DNA from: Hydrogenophaga sp. BPS33
GTDB lineage: Bacteria > Pseudomonadota > Gammaproteobacteria > Burkholderiales > Burkholderiaceae_C
NCBI RefSeq assembly: GCF_009859475.1
Contig: NZ_CP044549.1
Span: forward strand, 248,001 to 312,000
DNA length: 64,000 nucleotides
Reading direction: 5' to 3'
The position numbers and the translations under genes were made by a program. Of this stretch, positions 19,275 to 26,539 are shown piece by piece (positions within the stretch are counted from its first letter, which is position 1; the number at the start of each line of letters is the position of its first letter). The notes under the pieces were generated by a model, which worked only from the letters and a program-made list of their open reading frames with translations, did not search any database and was not told the DNA's origin.

Positions 19275-19283
19275 GGAGCGGAA

Positions 19284-19320
19284 TGTACGGTTGTACAAAA
19301 ATATTGGACACCCGTACAAA
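19284..19320. promoter_or_regulatory. Probable TetR operator between the TRAP/FAH operon and aacS
   Basis: TGTACGGTTGTACA (19284-19297) is a perfect 5-4-5 dyad. The half-site GTACAAA occurs at 19293-19299 and again at 19314-19320, three helical-phase steps of 7 bp apart. It lies in the 101-bp gap between the divergent TetR and acetoacetyl-CoA synthetase genes, so one repressor could control both directions. The site is seen; its use by this TetR protein is inferred. Confidence 0.55.
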
Positions 19321-19375
19321 CCCTGAGCTGACAAGACTTGCAATCGGCTCGCTGCGCGATACGCTGCACGCCACC

Positions 19376-21490
19376 ATGGCGACATCCCACCCCACCCCGT
19401 CCTACCTGCCCCAGATCCGTCTGTACCAGCAATGGCTCGCCGAACACCGCGGCCTGCAGTTCGACCACTACGACGCGCTTTGGCGCTGGTCCACCACCGA
19501 CCTCGACGGCTTCTGGCAAAGCATCTGGGACTATTTCGATCTGCAGTCGCCCACGCCGCACACGGCCGTGCTCGCAAAGAACGTGATGCCCGGTGCCCAA
19601 TGGTTCACCGGTGCGCGCGTGAACTATGCGCAGCAGGTGTTGCGCCATGTGGGGCAGGCGCACGAAGCGGGATTCGCGGCGGTGATCGGTCGCGACGAGA
19701 AGGGTCGACGCACCGAGCTCGGCTGGCCCGAGTTGCGCCGCCAGGTGGCCTCGCTCGCGCAGCACCTGCAGGCGCAAGGCGTGCAGCCGGGCGACCGCGT
19801 GGCGGCCTACCTGCCCAACATCCCCGAAGCCATGGTCGCCTTTCTCGCGACGGTCTCGATCGGGGGTGTGTGGAGCATCTGCGCGCCGGACATGGGCACG
19901 AACGCCGTGCTCGACCGCTTTCGCCAGATCGAACCCGTGGTGCTGATCGCCTGCGATGGCGTGCGCCACGCCGGGCGCGACCACGACCGGCTGGGTGTGG
20001 TGGCCGAACTTCGCGCCGCGCTGCCCAGCGTGCGCCACGTGCTGCTGCACACCCACCTGGCCGAGAGCGAAGAGGCGCAGGCCGCTGCGCTGCAAGCCGC
20101 CGCGCCCTGCACCCGGTTGGTTGCGGCCACCGCGCGCGACGACGCGGCCACCGCCGCCTTCGAACCGCTGTGGTTGCCGTTCGACCACCCGCTGTGGATC
20201 GTCTATTCCAGCGGCACCACCGGCCTGCCCAAGCCCATCGTGCACGGGCATGGCGGTACCGTGCTGGTGGGCATCGCGCTCATGTGCCTGCACAACGACG
20301 TGGGCTGCAGCTACCAGGCCAACAGCTGGGGCGAGCGCTTCCACTGGTACAGCTCCACCGGCTGGGTGATGTGGAACGCGCAGACCAGCGGCCTGCTCAA
20401 CGGCACCACCTGCGTGATCTACGACGGCAACCCAGGCGGCAGCAAGGACAAGCCCGACTGGACCACGCTCTGGCGCTTTGCCGCCGAGGAAGGCGTGAGC
20501 TTCTTCGGCGCGGGCGCAGCCTTCTTCGCCAACTGCCTAAAGTCCGGCGTGGATCTCGCGGCATGTGGCGACCTGTCCCCGGTGCGTGCATTGGGCACCA
20601 CCGGGTCACCGCTATCGGAGGACGCGCAGCGGTGGGGCACGGAGCAGTTCCGACGCATCGCGCGGAACGCGGCGCAGCAAGACATCTGGTGGTGCAATAT
20701 CAGCGGCGGTACCGACTTCGCCGGCGCCTTCATCGGCGGCAACCGCGAGCTGCCGCAGACGCCCGGGCGCATGCAATGCCGCCTGCTCGGCTGCGCGGTC
20801 GAGGCCTGGAACGAGCAGGGCCAACCGGTGATCGACGAGGTGGGCGAACTCGTGTGCGCGCAGCCGATCCCCTCGATGCCGTTGTACTTCGTGGGCGACA
20901 CCGACCATCAACGCCTGATCGGCAGCTACTTCGATGCCTACCCGCCCGGCCAGGGCCGCAAACCGGGCGGCGGTGACCTGGGCGAAGAGGCCGGTGCCGT
21001 CTGGCGCCACGGCGACTGGCTGCGCATCCACGCCGACGGTTCGTGCGTGATCTACGGCCGCTCCGACGCCACCATCAACCGCCACGGCCTGCGCATGGGC
21101 ACGAGCGAGCTCTACAGCGCGGTCGAGGCCCTGCCCGAGGTGCTGGACTCGATGGTGGTCGACCTCGAATACCTCGGGCGCGAGAGCTACATGCCGCTCT
21201 TCGTGGTGCTGCGCGATGGGGTTGCGCTCGATGACGCGATGCAGCAGCGCATCCACGACCGCATCAAGACCGCGCTGTCCCCGCGCTTCGTGCCCAATGC
21301 CATCTTCCAGGTGCCGGAGATCCCGCGCACGCTCTCGGGCAAGAAGCAGGAACTGCCGATCAAGAAGCTGCTGCTGGGCCAGCCGCTGGAGAAGGTGATC
21401 AACCGCGAGGCGATGGCCAATCCGGGTTCCCTGGACTGGTACCTGCGGTTCGCGGCTGAGCGCGCTGCGACGGTCAAGCCCGTCGGCTGA
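19376..21490 (+). CDS. Acetoacetyl-CoA synthetase
   Basis: 704 residues. An ANL-superfamily adenylate-forming enzyme with the P-loop-like IVYSSGTTGLPKPIVHGHGG, the acyl-CoA-synthetase N-terminal domain (FWQSIWDYFDLQS) and the A10-like KKQELPIKKLLLG. The length and the motifs MPLFVVL and GRSDATINRHGLRMGTSE match acetoacetyl-CoA synthetases rather than acetyl-CoA synthetases. The reaction is acetoacetate + ATP + CoA to acetoacetyl-CoA. It is transcribed divergently from the FAH operon, whose last enzyme produces acetoacetate. Its 3' end overlaps the next, convergent gene by 17 bp. Confidence 0.93.
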   Translation: MATSHPTPSYLPQIRLYQQWLAEHRGLQFDHYDALWRWSTTDLDGFWQSIWDYFDLQSPTPHTAVLAKNVMPGAQWFTGARVNYAQQVLRHVGQAHEAGFAAVIGRDEKGRRTELGWPELRRQVASLAQHLQAQGVQPGDRVAAYLPNIPEAMVAFLATVSIGGVWSICAPDMGTNAVLDRFRQIEPVVLIACDGVRHAGRDHDRLGVVAELRAALPSVRHVLLHTHLAESEEAQAAALQAAAPCTRLVAATARDDAATAAFEPLWLPFDHPLWIVYSSGTTGLPKPIVHGHGGTVLVGIALMCLHNDVGCSYQANSWGERFHWYSSTGWVMWNAQTSGLLNGTTCVIYDGNPGGSKDKPDWTTLWRFAAEEGVSFFGAGAAFFANCLKSGVDLAACGDLSPVRALGTTGSPLSEDAQRWGTEQFRRIARNAAQQDIWWCNISGGTDFAGAFIGGNRELPQTPGRMQCRLLGCAVEAWNEQGQPVIDEVGELVCAQPIPSMPLYFVGDTDHQRLIGSYFDAYPPGQGRKPGGGDLGEEAGAVWRHGDWLRIHADGSCVIYGRSDATINRHGLRMGTSELYSAVEALPEVLDSMVVDLEYLGRESYMPLFVVLRDGVALDDAMQQRIHDRIKTALSPRFVPNAIFQVPEIPRTLSGKKQELPIKKLLLGQPLEKVINREAMANPGSLDWYLRFAAERAATVKPVG

Positions 21491-22379
21491 CCAACACCAT
21501 ACCCACCGCCACGCCCACCAGCGCCACCACCAGTTGGGGCGTGAGCGGTTCGCTCAACAGCACCACGCCGAACACCAGCGCGAACACGGGGGTGAGGAAC
21601 GTGAAACTCGACATCTGCGTGGCGGGGTAGTGGCGCAGCATCCACATCCAGGTGAGGTAACTGGCGAACGCGCCGATCACCGTTTGCAGCGCGACGGAAC
21701 CCCAGGCCATGGCGGAGTAGTCGAAACGCCAGCTCTCGCCCATCGCCAGCGAGAGCACCGGCGCGACCACCGCGGTGACGGCGAGTTGGTAGAACAAGGT
21801 CTTCTCGGCACTGGCCGTGCTGAGCGTGGTCGCGCGGATGGTCAGCGTGGTCAGGCCCCAGAACACGCCCGCGGCCAACCCCAGCAGGTCGCCCCGCCAT
21901 TGCCCCGTCACCGGGGAGCTGTGCAGAAAGCCTTCGCTGAAGGCAATGGCCACGGCCAGGAACGCCACCACCAGACCGATCCACTGGATGCGCCGCAGCC
22001 GCTCGCTCGGCACGACGCGGGGCAACAGGATGGCCACCACGAAAGGGCTGGTGTACAGGAACACCGTCAGGCGCGAGGCGCTGGTGTGCATCAGGCCCAG
22101 GTAGATGCCGCAGAACTCGCCCGCGAACAACAAGCCCGCCAAGACGCCGGCGCGCAGCGTGCCGTCACGCTCGAACAGCGGTATGCCACGGGCGGCGCAC
22201 CAGGCCCAGAGCAGCAGCGTCGCGCCCACCATGCGGATCGAGGCCTGCCACATCGGCGGCACCTCGGCCACCGTGCTCTTGATAAGGATCTGCTGAAACC
22301 CCCAGAAGGCGCAGCACGCCACGAGCAAGGTGATGGCCAGGGCGTCGAGGTGTGTTTTGCGCTGGGGTGTGGGCGTCAT
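21474..22379 (-). CDS. EamA/DMT-superfamily transporter
   Basis: 301 residues with ten hydrophobic helices in two EamA repeats. CCAFWGFQQILIKSTVAEVPP begins the first repeat, and FWGLTTLTIRATTLSTASAEK begins the second. DMT proteins of this kind export amino acids or metabolites, but the substrate is not apparent. The family often carries housekeeping exporters of uncertain role. It converges with aacS (17-bp overlap) and is followed upstream by the MarR gene on the same strand. Confidence 0.88.
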   Translation of the reverse strand: MTPTPQRKTHLDALAITLLVACCAFWGFQQILIKSTVAEVPPMWQASIRMVGATLLLWAWCAARGIPLFERDGTLRAGVLAGLLFAGEFCGIYLGLMHTSASRLTVFLYTSPFVVAILLPRVVPSERLRRIQWIGLVVAFLAVAIAFSEGFLHSSPVTGQWRGDLLGLAAGVFWGLTTLTIRATTLSTASAEKTLFYQLAVTAVVAPVLSLAMGESWRFDYSAMAWGSVALQTVIGAFASYLTWMWMLRHYPATQMSSFTFLTPVFALVFGVVLLSEPLTPQLVVALVGVAVGMVLVSRRA

Positions 22380-22408: not shown

Positions 22409-22840
22409 TCAGGCGGTTCTTGCGAGCCGGCGCAACTGGTCCTTGAGGCGGCGCACTTCGGCCTCGCTCAGCGCGCCGAGTGCGGCGCTCTCGTGTTCGC
22501 GTGCCTGCGCGATCAGGGGTGCCACTTTCTTCTGTCCGGCGGCGGTGATGCCAACCAGCGTGCGGCGCTGATCGGCCGGGTCGCCACGCAGCGTCACCCA
22601 GCGCTGCGCGGCCAGACGCTGCACCAGCTTGGTCACCGTGGGTTGCTGGCTCAGCACCTCCGACGCGAGCTGGCCCACCGACATGGGGGGCTGTGCGCTG
22701 AGCGTGGCCAGCACGCGCCACTCGATACCGCTCAGGCCCGCTTCGCGCACAACCGCGTCGAACTCCTTGAACAAGGCGTGGTTCGCCAGTCCCAGGAGAT
22801 AGCCCAGGTAGTCGTCGACAAAGCTGTCAGCGCGGCTCAC
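22409..22840 (-). CDS. MarR-family transcriptional regulator
   Basis: 143 residues. A winged helix spans LSGIEWRVLATLSAQPPMSVGQLASEVLSQQPTVTKLVQRL, with the wing at RGDPADQRRTLVGITAAG, both standard for MarR. Its start overlaps the flavin-reductase stop by 4 bp. A MarR regulator (NicR, PicR) controls known pyridine-carboxylate pathways, and this gene sits beside NicX- and NicD-like enzymes, so a similar role is likely. The palindrome at 23371-23388 is the expected operator. Confidence 0.92.
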   Translation of the reverse strand: MSRADSFVDDYLGYLLGLANHALFKEFDAVVREAGLSGIEWRVLATLSAQPPMSVGQLASEVLSQQPTVTKLVQRLAAQRWVTLRGDPADQRRTLVGITAAGQKKVAPLIAQAREHESAALGALSEAEVRRLKDQLRRLARTA

Positions 22841-23358
22841 AACGGGTGCTCGGCGTAGAAGCGCCCGCCGTGGAACAGCAGGGGCGAGGCTTCGGGGCGG
22901 TGGCCGCAGTGCTCGACTTCACCCACGAAGATCACGTGGTCGCCTTCGGCGTACTGGCTGCGGTTGAAGCATTCGAAGCTCGCGGCCACGCCGTCGAGCA
23001 CCGGCGCGCCGCTCACGCCGGTGGTGAACGCCACGCCGGTCCAGCGGTCGGTGCCGCGCGCGGCGAAGCGTTCGGCCAGCGCCTGCTGATCGGCGGCCAG
23101 AACATTGATCGCGTAGTGGCGGCCGTTGGAGAACGCGGCCATCGAACCCGCCGTGCGCGCCAGGCTCCAGAGCACGAGCGGTGGCGACAAGGACACCGAG
23201 TTGAACGAATTGGCGGTAAGACCGACGAGCTCGCCGCTGTCGGTGCGGGCCGTCACGATCGTGACGCCCGTGGCAAACATGCCCAGAGAGGCGCGAAACT
23301 CCAGCGCCGAAAAATCGGGAGGCCGGGCCTGATGGCCGGCGGAAAGGGCAGGGGACAT
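22837..23358 (-). CDS. Flavin reductase (HpaC/RutF type)
   Basis: 173 residues. FRASLGMFATGVTIVTARTDSGELVGLTANSFNSVSLSPPLVLWSL is the FMN/FAD-binding core of flavin reductases that feed two-component monooxygenases, and GDHVIFVGEVEHCGHRPEASPLLFHGGRFY ends the domain as in HpaC and NTA-MoB. It supplies reduced flavin to a partner oxygenase. The acyl-CoA-dehydrogenase-fold protein encoded across the divergent promoter is the obvious candidate. It is co-transcribed with the MarR gene. Confidence 0.93.
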   Translation of the reverse strand: MSPALSAGHQARPPDFSALEFRASLGMFATGVTIVTARTDSGELVGLTANSFNSVSLSPPLVLWSLARTAGSMAAFSNGRHYAINVLAADQQALAERFAARGTDRWTGVAFTTGVSGAPVLDGVAASFECFNRSQYAEGDHVIFVGEVEHCGHRPEASPLLFHGGRFYAEHPL

Positions 23359-23370
23359 GCTTGGAATTTA

Positions 23371-23388
23371 CATGAATATTCATGAATA
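23371..23388. promoter_or_regulatory. Perfect palindrome, probable MarR operator in a divergent promoter
   Basis: CATGAATATTCATG (23371-23384) is a perfect 14-bp palindrome, and the overlapping TATTCATGAATA (23377-23388) is a perfect 12-bp one. They lie in the 54-bp gap between the flavin-reductase and NicX-like start codons, where a repressor would block both promoters. MarR proteins bind AT-rich palindromes of this size. Binding is inferred, but symmetry and position are seen directly. Confidence 0.75.
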
Positions 23389-23412
23389 ATGGCGCGACAA
23401 GGAGATAAGCCC

Positions 23413-24468
23413 ATGTTGCAGGAGCGGACTGAACCCGCCTGGATCGACGCCTTCGAAACGGTGTTGCGCCGTTGTGCATTGCAGCCCGGCGACACGGTGG
23501 CCATTCTCGGTGAAACCCAGAGCCGGCCGGTTTTGCTGGAGTTGGCACGCCTGGCGGCGGCCCGCATGCACGCACGCGCGTTCATGCTCATGCTGCCTTC
23601 GGTGTTCGGCCCGGCGGGCGAGCCCGTGTCGCGCTCCACCGGCGCCAGTCCTGCCATCCAGCAGCTGGGCCCCGTTATCGCGGCATTGTCGGCGTGCACG
23701 CTGGTGCTGGACTGCACGGTCGAAGGCCTGATGCACGCGCCCGAGCTGCCGGTCATCCTCAAGGGCGATGGCCGCACGCAGCCGCGCGTCGTCTACGTGA
23801 GCAACGAACACCCCGAAGCGCTGGCGCGGCTGCTGCCCGACGACGCCACCGAAGCGCGCGTGAAAGACCATGTGAAGCGGCTGCGCGCCGCACAGACCAT
23901 GCGCGTTACCTCGGCCTCGGGCACCGACCTGCGCATCTCCTTGCAGGGGGCGGTGTCGGGCGGCAACTGGGGCAGCACCACGCGTCCCGGTACGCTCACG
24001 CATTGGCCCGGCGGCCTGGTGCTGGCGTTTCCCGCCGCAGGCAGCGTGAACGGCACCCTCGTGCTGGCCGAAGGCGACGTCAACCTCACCTTCAAGCGCT
24101 ACATTGAAAACCCGATTGCGCTCGCGATCGACAACGACCACATCACGCATATCGAGGGCCGCGGTGTGGACGCGCAGCTGCTGCGCAGCCACTACGCGGC
24201 GTGGAATGAAAAGGAGGCCTACGCCGTGAGCCACATGGGATATGGACTGAACGAAAACGCCCGCTGGGACAGCATGGCGCTCTACGACAAACGCGATTTC
24301 AACGGCACCGAACTGCGCGCCTTCGCCGGCAACTTTCTCTACAGCACCGGTGCCAACGAAGTCGCCGGTCGCCACACACGCGGGCACTTCGACTTTCCGC
24401 TGCGCGCCTGCACCGTGCAGCTCGACGGCCACACGGTGGTCGACGCCGGAAAGGTGGTGGCCGCATGA
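23413..24468 (+). CDS. 2,5-dihydroxypyridine 5,6-dioxygenase-like (NicX family) ring-cleavage enzyme
   Basis: 351 residues, matching the length of NicX (350). From my memory of Pseudomonas putida NicX, the C-terminal half aligns throughout: GTLVLAEGDV, SHMGYGLN, RAFAGNFLYSTGANEVAG and GHFDFPLR. His274, His325 and Asp327 occupy the positions of the NicX iron ligands. NicX opens the ring of 2,5-dihydroxypyridine with O2, giving N-formylmaleamate. The N-terminal half looks more divergent, so the substrate may be a different hydroxylated pyridine or related heterocycle. ATG 23413 has an AAGGAGA ribosome-binding site and fits the family start. The stop overlaps the next gene by 4 bp. Confidence 0.8.
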   Translation: MLQERTEPAWIDAFETVLRRCALQPGDTVAILGETQSRPVLLELARLAAARMHARAFMLMLPSVFGPAGEPVSRSTGASPAIQQLGPVIAALSACTLVLDCTVEGLMHAPELPVILKGDGRTQPRVVYVSNEHPEALARLLPDDATEARVKDHVKRLRAAQTMRVTSASGTDLRISLQGAVSGGNWGSTTRPGTLTHWPGGLVLAFPAAGSVNGTLVLAEGDVNLTFKRYIENPIALAIDNDHITHIEGRGVDAQLLRSHYAAWNEKEAYAVSHMGYGLNENARWDSMALYDKRDFNGTELRAFAGNFLYSTGANEVAGRHTRGHFDFPLRACTVQLDGHTVVDAGKVVAA

Positions 24469-25259
24469 TCCCGAAGTTCACGACCCTGGGCAGCGGCACC
24501 ACGGTCTTGATGCTGCACGGCATTGGCGGTGGGCACGTCGCCTTCGCGCCGCAGGTAGAAACGCTGGCGGCGGCCGGTTACCGCGCGGTGGCCTGGGACA
24601 TGCCCGGCTACGGCCACAGCGCACCTATCGAACCGTATACCTTCAAGGGCCTGGCGCAGAGTTGCGTCAACCTCATCGATGCCCTGCAGTGCGATCACGT
24701 GGTGTTGCTTGGCCACAGCATGGGCGGCATGGTGGCGCAGGAAGTGGTGGCGCGGTATCCCGAGCGCGTGAGCCGCCTGGTGCTGTGCGGCACCTCGGCC
24801 GCGTTCGGCAAACGCGCCGATGGTCGCGGCGCCGATGCGTGGGCGCAGCAGTTCGTGGCACAGCGAACCGCGCCGCTGGATGAAGGCAAGAGCATGGTCG
24901 AGGTGGCGCAAAAACTGGTGCCGCAGATGGTCGGTCCTGGCTCGATGCCCGAGGGTGTGCGCCTGGCCGAGCATTGCATGGGCGGTGTGCCCGCGGCCAC
25001 CTACCGGCGCGCGCTCGATTGCCTCGTCACGTTCGACCGGCAGTCGGCGCTGAAAGACATCGCCGTGCCCACGCTGCTCATCGGCGGCGAGTTCGACCGC
25101 GTGGCTGCGCCGGCGGTGATGCAGCAGATGGCGCAAGACATCGCGCACGCGCGCTACGAAGAGCTCAAGGGCATCGGCCATCTGATGAACCTGGAAGCAC
25201 CCGAGGAGTTCGACGGCCTGCTGCTCGATTTCCTGGCGCAGACGCGTGCTATTCATTGA
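24465..25259 (+). CDS. Alpha/beta hydrolase, N-formylmaleamate deformylase-like (NicD-like)
   Basis: 264 residues with the complete hydrolase triad: Ser85 in LGHSMGGM, Asp211 in GGEFDRVAAP and His239 in GIGHLMNLEAP. MLHGIGGGHVAF forms the oxyanion region. In nicotinate and picolinate catabolism, an alpha/beta hydrolase encoded after NicX removes formate from N-formylmaleamate, and this gene has the same order and a 4-bp overlap with the NicX homologue. Specificity is inferred from context, since many hydrolases share this sequence pattern. Confidence 0.82.
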   Translation: MIPKFTTLGSGTTVLMLHGIGGGHVAFAPQVETLAAAGYRAVAWDMPGYGHSAPIEPYTFKGLAQSCVNLIDALQCDHVVLLGHSMGGMVAQEVVARYPERVSRLVLCGTSAAFGKRADGRGADAWAQQFVAQRTAPLDEGKSMVEVAQKLVPQMVGPGSMPEGVRLAEHCMGGVPAATYRRALDCLVTFDRQSALKDIAVPTLLIGGEFDRVAAPAVMQQMAQDIAHARYEELKGIGHLMNLEAPEEFDGLLLDFLAQTRAIH

Positions 25260-25282
25260 TCGTTCTTCCACAGGACAAGTGC

Positions 25283-26539
25283 ATGAGCACGACACCGTCA
25301 CTGGATTTCACCCCGGCCGTGGGCGACATGCCCTTCACGGCGTTGCAGCGCGAGCTTCTCCTGAAGGCACACACGCTCGGCCGCGAGCGTTTCGCGCCGC
25401 GCGCCGCGCTTTGGGACCGCGAGGCCAGCTTCCCCTTTGCGAACTACGACGATCTGCGCGAAGCCGGCTTCCTGCGGCTCTGCGTGCCCACCACGCACGG
25501 CGGCCTGGGCGCCGACTACGCCACCTACATGATGGTGGCGGCCGAGATCGGGCGCTTCTGCGGTGCCACCGCGCTCACCTGGAACATGCACATCTGCAGC
25601 ACCCTGTGGACCGGTGTGCTGGCCGACGGCATCGCCATGACCGATGTGCAGCGTACCGAACACGCTGCGCGCCGCGAGCTGCATTTCCAGCGCATCGTGA
25701 ACGGCGGCGCGGTCTATGCCCAACCCTTCAGCGAAGGCAGCGCCGCGGCGGCCGGACGCGCGCCTTTCGGCACCACCGCGAGAAAGGTGGAGGGTGGCTG
25801 GCGCATCAACGGCCGCAAGATCTTCGCCAGCCTGTCGGGCGCGGCCGACTACTACGGCATCCTCTGCACCGAGGACAAAGGCGACGAGCACCCCGACGCG
25901 CGCGACACGCTCTACATCAGCGTGCCTGCGACCAGCGCGGGCTTCTCCATCGGTGGCGAGTGGGACCCGCTGGGCATGCGCGGCACCGTCAGCCGCAACC
26001 TCGCGTTCCACGACGTGTTCGTGAGCGACGCCGAACAGCTCATGCCACGCGGCCTTTACTTCAAGGGAGCGCAGACCTGGCCCGCCATGTTCTTCACGCT
26101 CTCGCCGACCTACCTGGGCGTGGCCACGGCGGCCTACGACTTCACTGTGAAGTACCTGCGCGGCGAGGTCGAGGGCGAGCCGCCGGTCGAGCGCCGGCAA
26201 TACCCCACCAAGCAAATCGCGGTGGCGCAGATGCGCATCCAACTCGAGAGCATGAAGAGCCTGTTCGCGCGCGCGATCGCGGAGGCCAAGCCCAATCCCT
26301 CGAAAGATGAAAAGCTTCGGCTCTATGCCGCGCATTACAGCGTGATGGAAGGCGCCAACGACATCGCCCGCCTGGCCCTGCGCACCTGCGGTGGCCAGAG
26401 CATGATGAAGCACCTGCCGCTGGAGCGCTTGTACCGTGACAGTCGCTGTGGTGCGCTCATGCTGCCATGGACCGCCGAGCTCATCCTGGACCGCATGGGC
26501 CGCGAAACGCTCTACGAAGTGGGTGAGAAGGGCGATTGA
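25283..26539 (+). CDS. Acyl-CoA-dehydrogenase-fold flavoprotein, probable two-component monooxygenase
   Basis: 418 residues with N-terminal helical, middle beta and C-terminal helical ACAD domains: VPTTHGGLGADYATYM, YAQPFSEG and GGWRINGRKIFASLSGAADYY. The end, CGGQSMMKHLPLERLYRDSRCGALMLPW, follows the ACAD fold, but the region that should hold the catalytic Glu of true dehydrogenases shows no clear YEG(T/S)-type motif. ACAD-fold proteins of this kind (DszC, SfnB and others) are reduced-flavin monooxygenases. With a flavin-reductase gene across the divergent promoter and NicX/NicD-like enzymes in the same operon, ring hydroxylation is the likely role. Confidence 0.8.
   Translation: MSTTPSLDFTPAVGDMPFTALQRELLLKAHTLGRERFAPRAALWDREASFPFANYDDLREAGFLRLCVPTTHGGLGADYATYMMVAAEIGRFCGATALTWNMHICSTLWTGVLADGIAMTDVQRTEHAARRELHFQRIVNGGAVYAQPFSEGSAAAAGRAPFGTTARKVEGGWRINGRKIFASLSGAADYYGILCTEDKGDEHPDARDTLYISVPATSAGFSIGGEWDPLGMRGTVSRNLAFHDVFVSDAEQLMPRGLYFKGAQTWPAMFFTLSPTYLGVATAAYDFTVKYLRGEVEGEPPVERRQYPTKQIAVAQMRIQLESMKSLFARAIAEAKPNPSKDEKLRLYAAHYSVMEGANDIARLALRTCGGQSMMKHLPLERLYRDSRCGALMLPWTAELILDRMGRETLYEVGEKGD

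Follow-up and report, generated by a model that had tools for sequence, protein, structure and literature searches.

A conserved gene cluster of Hydrogenophaga sp. BPS33 with a NicX-type dioxygenase of a separate clade: a candidate operon for the catabolism of an aromatic or heteroaromatic acid

The closest described relative of the enzyme considered here is NicX of Pseudomonas putida KT2440 (PDB 7cn3, 7cnt and 7cup), a non-heme iron ring-cleavage dioxygenase said to define a subtype within its class, which acts on 2,5-dihydroxypyridine and for which no other substrate is reported (PMC7910607). According to the same account Glu177 and His189 hold an oxygen (O1) of the dihydroxypyridine, while Val175 sits in substrate channel I, off the active site (PMC7910607). 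We describe a gene cluster containing a NicX-like protein in a 64,000 bp window (the whole stretch of DNA that was analyzed) of Hydrogenophaga sp. BPS33. The window corresponds to C1:248001-312000 of the host genome (6.77 Mb, three contigs), and all C1 coordinates below are those of the host. A first-pass annotation had recognized five genes, specifying a MarR regulator, a flavin reductase, a NicX-like dioxygenase, an alpha/beta hydrolase and a flavoprotein of the acyl-coenzyme A (CoA) dehydrogenase (ACAD) fold, and had proposed that together they degrade a nitrogen heterocycle. All five were found where it had placed them (Table 1). We read the cluster as a catabolic operon under MarR control whose substrate is an aromatic or heteroaromatic acid, and in which a ligase, a hydroxylase, the NicX-type enzyme and the hydrolase would act in that order; we give this reading about an even chance of being correct.

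The NicX-like protein is 35% identical to KT2440 NicX. Its predicted model (mean pLDDT 88.5) superposes on 7cn3_A with a TM score of 0.89 and a root-mean-square deviation of 2.3 over 345 columns, against 0.56-0.62 for the M29 peptidases PepS, AmpT and AmpS, so that the fold does not place it with the M29 aminopeptidases, a grouping which the first-pass annotation had named as fatal to its proposal. The other such grouping, with characterized NicX, was not found either. A tree was built from 49 rows selected among the loci collected. In it 36 window-type rows are separated from 11 nic-type rows (KT2440, the host paralogue at C1:607 kb and nine further loci) by a branch of length 1.45 with support of 100/99; the two remaining rows, L115 and a very long paralogue of the host linked to ABC transporter genes, belong to neither group. 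The iron ligands H265, S302, H318 and D320 are conserved in all 36 window-type rows, as are His105 and Arg293, and His189 is present in 35. Glu177, on the other hand, occurs in 11/11 nic-type rows versus 0/36 of the window type, where its place is taken by Asn (18 rows), Val (9), Gly (6) or Thr (3). The substrate-contact set of NicX, Glu177, His189 and His105, is thus incomplete in these rows through the loss of Glu177. In addition Val175 is replaced by Gly in 32 of the 36, and two extra residues precede Leu104-His105; His105 is itself Phe in 8/11 nic-type rows. Since the iron ligands are kept while Glu177 is lost, the iron-site chemistry is probably the same and the substrate different, and the ligands together with the NicX fold argue for ring cleavage. 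Cys76 and Glu308, which had also been considered as distinguishing residues, were dropped because a more careful alignment shows gaps or other letters at these positions. Pfam and NCBIfam returned no family for the NicX-like protein, a result which was not counted as evidence; a protein search names PF26233.

The genes are arranged in two divergent arms, one carrying the MarR and flavin reductase genes and the other those for the NicX-like protein, the hydrolase and the ACAD-fold protein, with 4 bp overlaps between the first two and between the NicX-like and hydrolase genes. A gene for an EamA permease extends the minus-strand arm past marR. The top NCBIfam hit of the MarR protein is HpaR (56.5 bits), and those of the reductase are the 4-hydroxyphenylacetate 3-hydroxylase reductase, FerA and HsaB, each of these below its cut-off. 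Reduced flavin for the ACAD-fold protein, the presumed oxygenase of the pair, would come from the reductase, and the hydrolase presumably acts on the product of ring cleavage.

Table 1. Features of the cluster, with positions numbered from the first base of the window
Feature	Position	Strand	Basis or remark
EamA/DMT-family permease	21474..22379	-	Pfam EamA, 114 bits; start uncertain (22379 or 22391)
MarR-family regulator	22409..22840	-	Pfam MarR_2, 52 bits
Flavin reductase	22837..23358	-	Pfam Flavin_Reduct, 134.6 bits
Palindrome CATGAATATTCATG, presumed MarR operator	23371..23384	.	Between the divergent arms
NicX-type non-heme iron ring-cleavage dioxygenase, separate clade	23413..24468	+	NicX 7cn3, E 5.9e-54
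Alpha/beta hydrolase	24465..25259	+	Pfam Abhydrolase_1, 113.9 bits
ACAD-fold flavoprotein	25283..26539	+	Pfam Acyl-CoA_dh domains

A scan of one genome per species gave 151 relatives of the NicX-like protein, and the loci of the best 80 of these were compared. They comprise 71 close loci (Hydrogenophaga, Ramlibacter, Caenimonas, Polaromonas and relatives), among which the nearest to this locus are from Hydrogenophaga, and nine distant ones. Homologues of all five genes are present within the locus in 56/71 close loci, and the cluster is therefore kept as a unit, a point on which the first-pass annotation had made its proposal depend. Taken singly, the hydrolase was found in 68 of the 71, the flavin reductase in 67, MarR in 63 and the ACAD-fold protein in 62; in 11 of the 15 incomplete loci the contig ends on the side concerned, leaving four (L055, L063, L064 and L066) which truly lack genes. 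An EamA homologue is present in 64/71, so that while the five genes stand, the count of five does not, and the conserved unit is probably one of six genes including the permease. Several other neighbours are partly conserved across the 80 loci, namely an acetoacetate-CoA ligase gene (36), a CoxL-type molybdenum hydroxylase gene (18), a Rieske gene (15) and a beta-lactamase-like gene (8). As each is missing from most loci they were judged to reflect synteny and were rejected as pathway genes. In the window the acetoacetate-CoA ligase gene lies at 19283-21490 (944 bits). The weakly beta-lactamase-like gene specifies a serine hydrolase and is inserted between the hydrolase and ACAD genes (L001, L003, L014, L024, L027, L033, L045 and L059). 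On plasmid p1 of Ensifer adhaerens (L158:9337-25029) the module lies between transposase genes of IS3 and IS30 and may thus form a mobile catabolic island; this small island also carries a glutamine-synthetase-like gene and an APC permease, and its ACAD gene is accompanied by one for a flavin reductase.

The 14 bp palindrome between the two arms is presumed, on the evidence of its sequence, to be the operator of a MarR-controlled operon. The upstream regions of 78 of the 80 loci and of the window (79 in all, 70 close with the window included, and nine distant) were searched with CATGAAWWTTCATG, which was found at 0-1 mismatch in 65, that is in 64/70 close and 1/9 distant regions; seven of the nine distant regions have at least three mismatches. 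Among 1,580 shuffled regions there was no occurrence at 0-1 mismatch and one at two mismatches. The promoter region that the two arms share thus holds a conserved palindrome, next to a MarR gene. When the host genome was searched for a regulon with the operator, no second exact site was found, and one further place differs by a single mismatch.

As the first-pass annotation had supposed, the flavin reductase and ACAD-fold protein stand where a hydroxylase would be expected. The ACAD fold and a linked flavin reductase are the marks of the group D flavin monooxygenases, and both are found here. The protein falls far below the curated cut-offs of individual members of that group, scoring 65.4 of 450 bits for HsaA and 60.8 of 850 for DszC, and in fold comparisons it ties with true dehydrogenases. 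Leu394, invariant in 23/23 aligned sequences, occupies what we take to be the place, in the C-terminal segment, of the catalytic Glu of short/medium-chain ACADs, and residues 263-279, presumably covering the isovaleryl-type position, contain no Glu; the dehydrogenase sequences compared end before the first of these positions. The hydrolase had been called NicD-like. This holds at the level of the fold, but not beyond it: a separate nicotinate-type cluster of the same host encodes a NicD-like protein with which it shares about 20% identity, and which is itself 43-51% identical to the hydrolases of eight loci with other NicX types.

That nicotinate-type cluster (L084; C1:606-614 kb) contains an FAD monooxygenase, an isochorismatase and a hydrolase by Pfam, molybdenum hydroxylase subunits on reading by eye, and a NicX paralogue with Phe in place of His105. 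The nic genes which the first-pass annotation had reported missing are indeed absent from the cluster under study: a search of the window together with the 71 close loci gave no homologue of NicC, NicE or NicF at E 1e-5 (0/72). A search of the same 72 loci with NicD gave a single match of 28% (L046), which is the module's own hydrolase. By comparison, at least three of NicC, NicD, NicE and NicF are present in 8 of 10 loci read with other NicX types. Family PF17645, to which we take the maleate isomerase NicE to belong, was followed through 120 genomes of the host's family. Eighteen of these, the host included, carry the window type of NicX-like gene (at least 60% identity), and three a type at 41-42%. 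PF17645 is present in 5/18 and 3/3 of them respectively, lying about 1 kb from the gene in two of the three, which fits the presumed identity of NicE; it is found in 21/102 of the other genomes, and 5/18 is no more than this background (Fisher 0.54). No PF17645 match lies near the host's nicotinate-type cluster, the only one in the genome being weak (64 bits) and at 4.76 Mb. Since that cluster also lacks the family, a missing NicE nearby is not decisive by itself. Taken together, the separate clade, the loss of Glu177, the absence of NicC, NicE and NicF, the distant hydrolase and the host's own nic cluster indicate that the cluster is probably not a nicotinate route. A third NicX paralogue of the host, highly diverged (C1:4739727-4740800; L085:7728-8801), sits with alpha/beta hydrolase and ABC transporter genes and retains the iron ligands, with His189 changed to Ala and Glu177 to Gln.

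A possible first enzyme emerged from 19 loci beyond the close group (the nine distant ones and ten from further genomes). In 13 of these the module comes with an AMP-forming CoA ligase from a single family, and the same is true of 20 further loci of one genus. No ligase of this family occurs in the 71 close loci, which have only three unrelated ligases at 24-29%. The host nevertheless possesses a relative at C1:449483-451021, a 53% match, the next by score being at 36% with one partial match at 40%. It is 42-54% identical to 12 module ligases versus 27-31% to two other ligases. No catabolic genes were seen beside it on reading by eye. The best 120 relatives of the host ligase include proteins from cluster-carrying Hydrogenophaga (2FB, A37, D2P1 and palleronii). 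In the tree the window clade is surrounded by ligase-bearing loci, through forks with middling support; the ligase may therefore be an ancestral part of the module that later moved away. L102-L104, Ensifer and Aminobacter have a glutamine-synthetase-like gene instead of the ligase, and uptake genes of the TRAP or TctC type (read by eye) adjoin the module in L098, L104 and L105. The ligase, the glutamine-synthetase-like gene and the uptake genes point to an activated aromatic acid as the probable substrate of the pathway.

Which ring is attacked can be approached from several sides. The nitrogen heterocycle of the first-pass annotation is a candidate, and the interpretation is better widened to a probably activated acid whose ring may be aromatic or heteroaromatic. 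One possibility, though we would not build on it, is that the compound is an acid with a pyridine ring, or a hydroxypyridine, but neither nicotinate nor picolinate, and that the two-component hydroxylase of the ACAD fold takes the place of NicC: this agrees with the pyridine substrate of characterized NicX (PMC7910607) and with the retained fold, iron ligands, His105, His189 and Arg293, but it must contend with the absence of Glu177 from every window-type row, the lack of a NicD orthologue, and a PF17645 family missing from 13/18 carrier genomes and present in all three of the 41-42% type. Molybdenum hydroxylases often hydroxylate N-heterocycles, and a large subunit of such an enzyme lies near the module in 18/71 close loci (L014, L024, L027, L035 and 14 others), not in the window; the 12 of these that were compared share 34-38% identity with the corresponding subunit in the host's nicotinate-type cluster. 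A gene for the iron-sulphur subunit was found near none of the 18, and the one copy tested against NCBIfam was nearer to aldehyde and CO dehydrogenases, below cut-off. That the cluster is instead a spare part of nicotinate catabolism, making or opening 2,5-dihydroxypyridine, is very improbable indeed. Many of the best 120 relatives do bear the automatic name "2,5-dihydroxypyridine 5,6-dioxygenase", yet the host already has the nicotinate-type cluster with its own NicX paralogue, and the clade and the lost Glu177 set the window protein apart. Hardly better is the case for no ring catabolism at all, the enzymes being an M29-like peptidase or a side branch of acyl-CoA beta-oxidation. Here too database labels ("peptidase M29" on many relatives) and the tie of the ACAD fold with true dehydrogenases are in favour, but the M29 structures fit the model far less well than NicX does, the NicX iron ligands are conserved, and the ACAD-fold protein is without the usual catalytic Glu, at positions we presume.

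The other ring to be weighed is benzenoid, an acid of the anthranilate or aminobenzoate type (e.g. from tryptophan via kynurenine), whose CoA or gamma-glutamyl derivative would be hydroxylated before its ring is opened by NicX-type cleavage. We consider this unlikely, although it is a live alternative to the heterocycle by virtue of the kynurenine genes of one genus. The NicX-like gene is present in 36/60 genomes of this genus, and in all 21 loci read of these 36 carriers the module lies directly beside kynR-kynBUA. Tryptophan 2,3-dioxygenase occurs in all 60, and in the host's family it is found in 18/18 window-type genomes versus 60/102 others (Fisher 2e-4), a test that ignores relatedness, genome size and lifestyle. 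An aminobenzoate, moreover, offers both an acid group for the CoA ligase and an amine for the glutamine-synthetase-like gene product, and a gene of the salicylyl-CoA 5-hydroxylase/anthraniloyl-CoA monooxygenase type lies near the module in L073, L078 and L104; a fragment was also seen by eye at the L099 edge. Against this, kyn genes adjoin the module in that genus only (0/80 loci of the main set), and NicX itself is reported for a pyridine only (PMC7910607). A PRK08255-type gene is above cut-off in 57/60 genomes of the genus whether or not they have the module, which is therefore no replacement for a missing anthranilate route; a complementation argument for anthranilate, by which the module-free genomes should differ in this gene, was rejected because they do not, and anthranilate stays a rival only. 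In 20 of the 24 module-free genomes the kyn locus was examined: no replacement module was seen, and MarR matched in 1/20. All 20 (L137-L156) have kyn genes together with a flavin reductase, which without the rest of the module may be a relic or may be used by something else.

The sequence itself gives the genes and their conservation, the retained iron ligands, the clade, the change at a substrate contact and the family of the ligase; from these we infer for the proposed operon an order of reactions, cleavage as a CoA ester, an induction logic and the kind of acid. The acid would be activated by the AMP-forming CoA ligase, encoded elsewhere in this host (C1:449483-451021). The flavin reductase and ACAD-fold protein, as a two-component monooxygenase, would then hydroxylate the ring, which would be opened next to the new hydroxyl by the NicX-type iron dioxygenase, and the alpha/beta hydrolase would split the ring-opened product. 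MarR, bound to the palindrome, may repress both arms until a compound of the pathway binds to it. A more specific form of this proposal, which we advance only tentatively and as rather doubtful, is that a carboxylated ring, benzenoid or heterocyclic, is tagged with CoA (gamma-glutamate in some relatives), hydroxylated by the ACAD-fold protein and opened by a NicX-type enzyme with its pocket rebuilt for a larger substrate, in a type of aerobic aromatic catabolism that is undescribed.

Among described systems NicX of KT2440 shares with the window protein its fold, length, iron ligands, His105, His189 and Arg293, the latter differing in its clade, the lost Glu177 and the two additional residues before Leu104-His105. 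The nicotinate route would lead one to expect homologues of NicC, NicE and NicF beside NicX, and the window cluster has none. With the nic-type clusters, including that of the host, it has in common a NicX-family enzyme and an alpha/beta hydrolase; the FAD monooxygenase and isochorismatase (NicC and NicF type) occur there and not in the window, and the hydrolases are, as noted, remote. These enzymes include a large second clade with its own gene partners, for which the names "2,5-dihydroxypyridine 5,6-dioxygenase" and "peptidase M29" are probably both wrong. Among the open-licence PMC papers listed by literature searches, the longer lists ending at 15-20 entries, none describes the gene set as judged by titles and the starts of abstracts, which is weak evidence of novelty. 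Identification of the substrate would add a route of ring opening that is new and possibly linked to CoA, and which is common among Hydrogenophaga, Ramlibacter and their relatives.

Parallels exist for its separate steps. The HsaA-D system goes from hydroxylation to ring cleavage and then to a hydrolase step. The group D flavin monooxygenases (HpaH/C2, HsaAB, KijD3) share the ACAD fold and a partner flavin reductase, but the ring-cleavage enzyme of the window is of the NicX type, not extradiol, and the oxygenase, as stated, scores well under their curated thresholds. Aromatic acids are hydroxylated aerobically in CoA-linked form in the salicylyl-CoA 5-hydroxylase and anthraniloyl-CoA monooxygenase pathways, though by a flavoprotein family different from the window ACAD and, to our knowledge, with no NicX-type enzyme. 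TdaE, a flavoprotein dioxygenase acting on a CoA ester, illustrates that a ring linked to CoA can be oxygenated by an ACAD-like flavoenzyme; unlike the window cluster it is biosynthetic (PMC8283759). Set beside these systems, the cluster is a module in which NicX-type ring opening is combined with another kind of hydroxylase and another kind of hydrolase, and to which most of the distant relatives read add an activating ligase.

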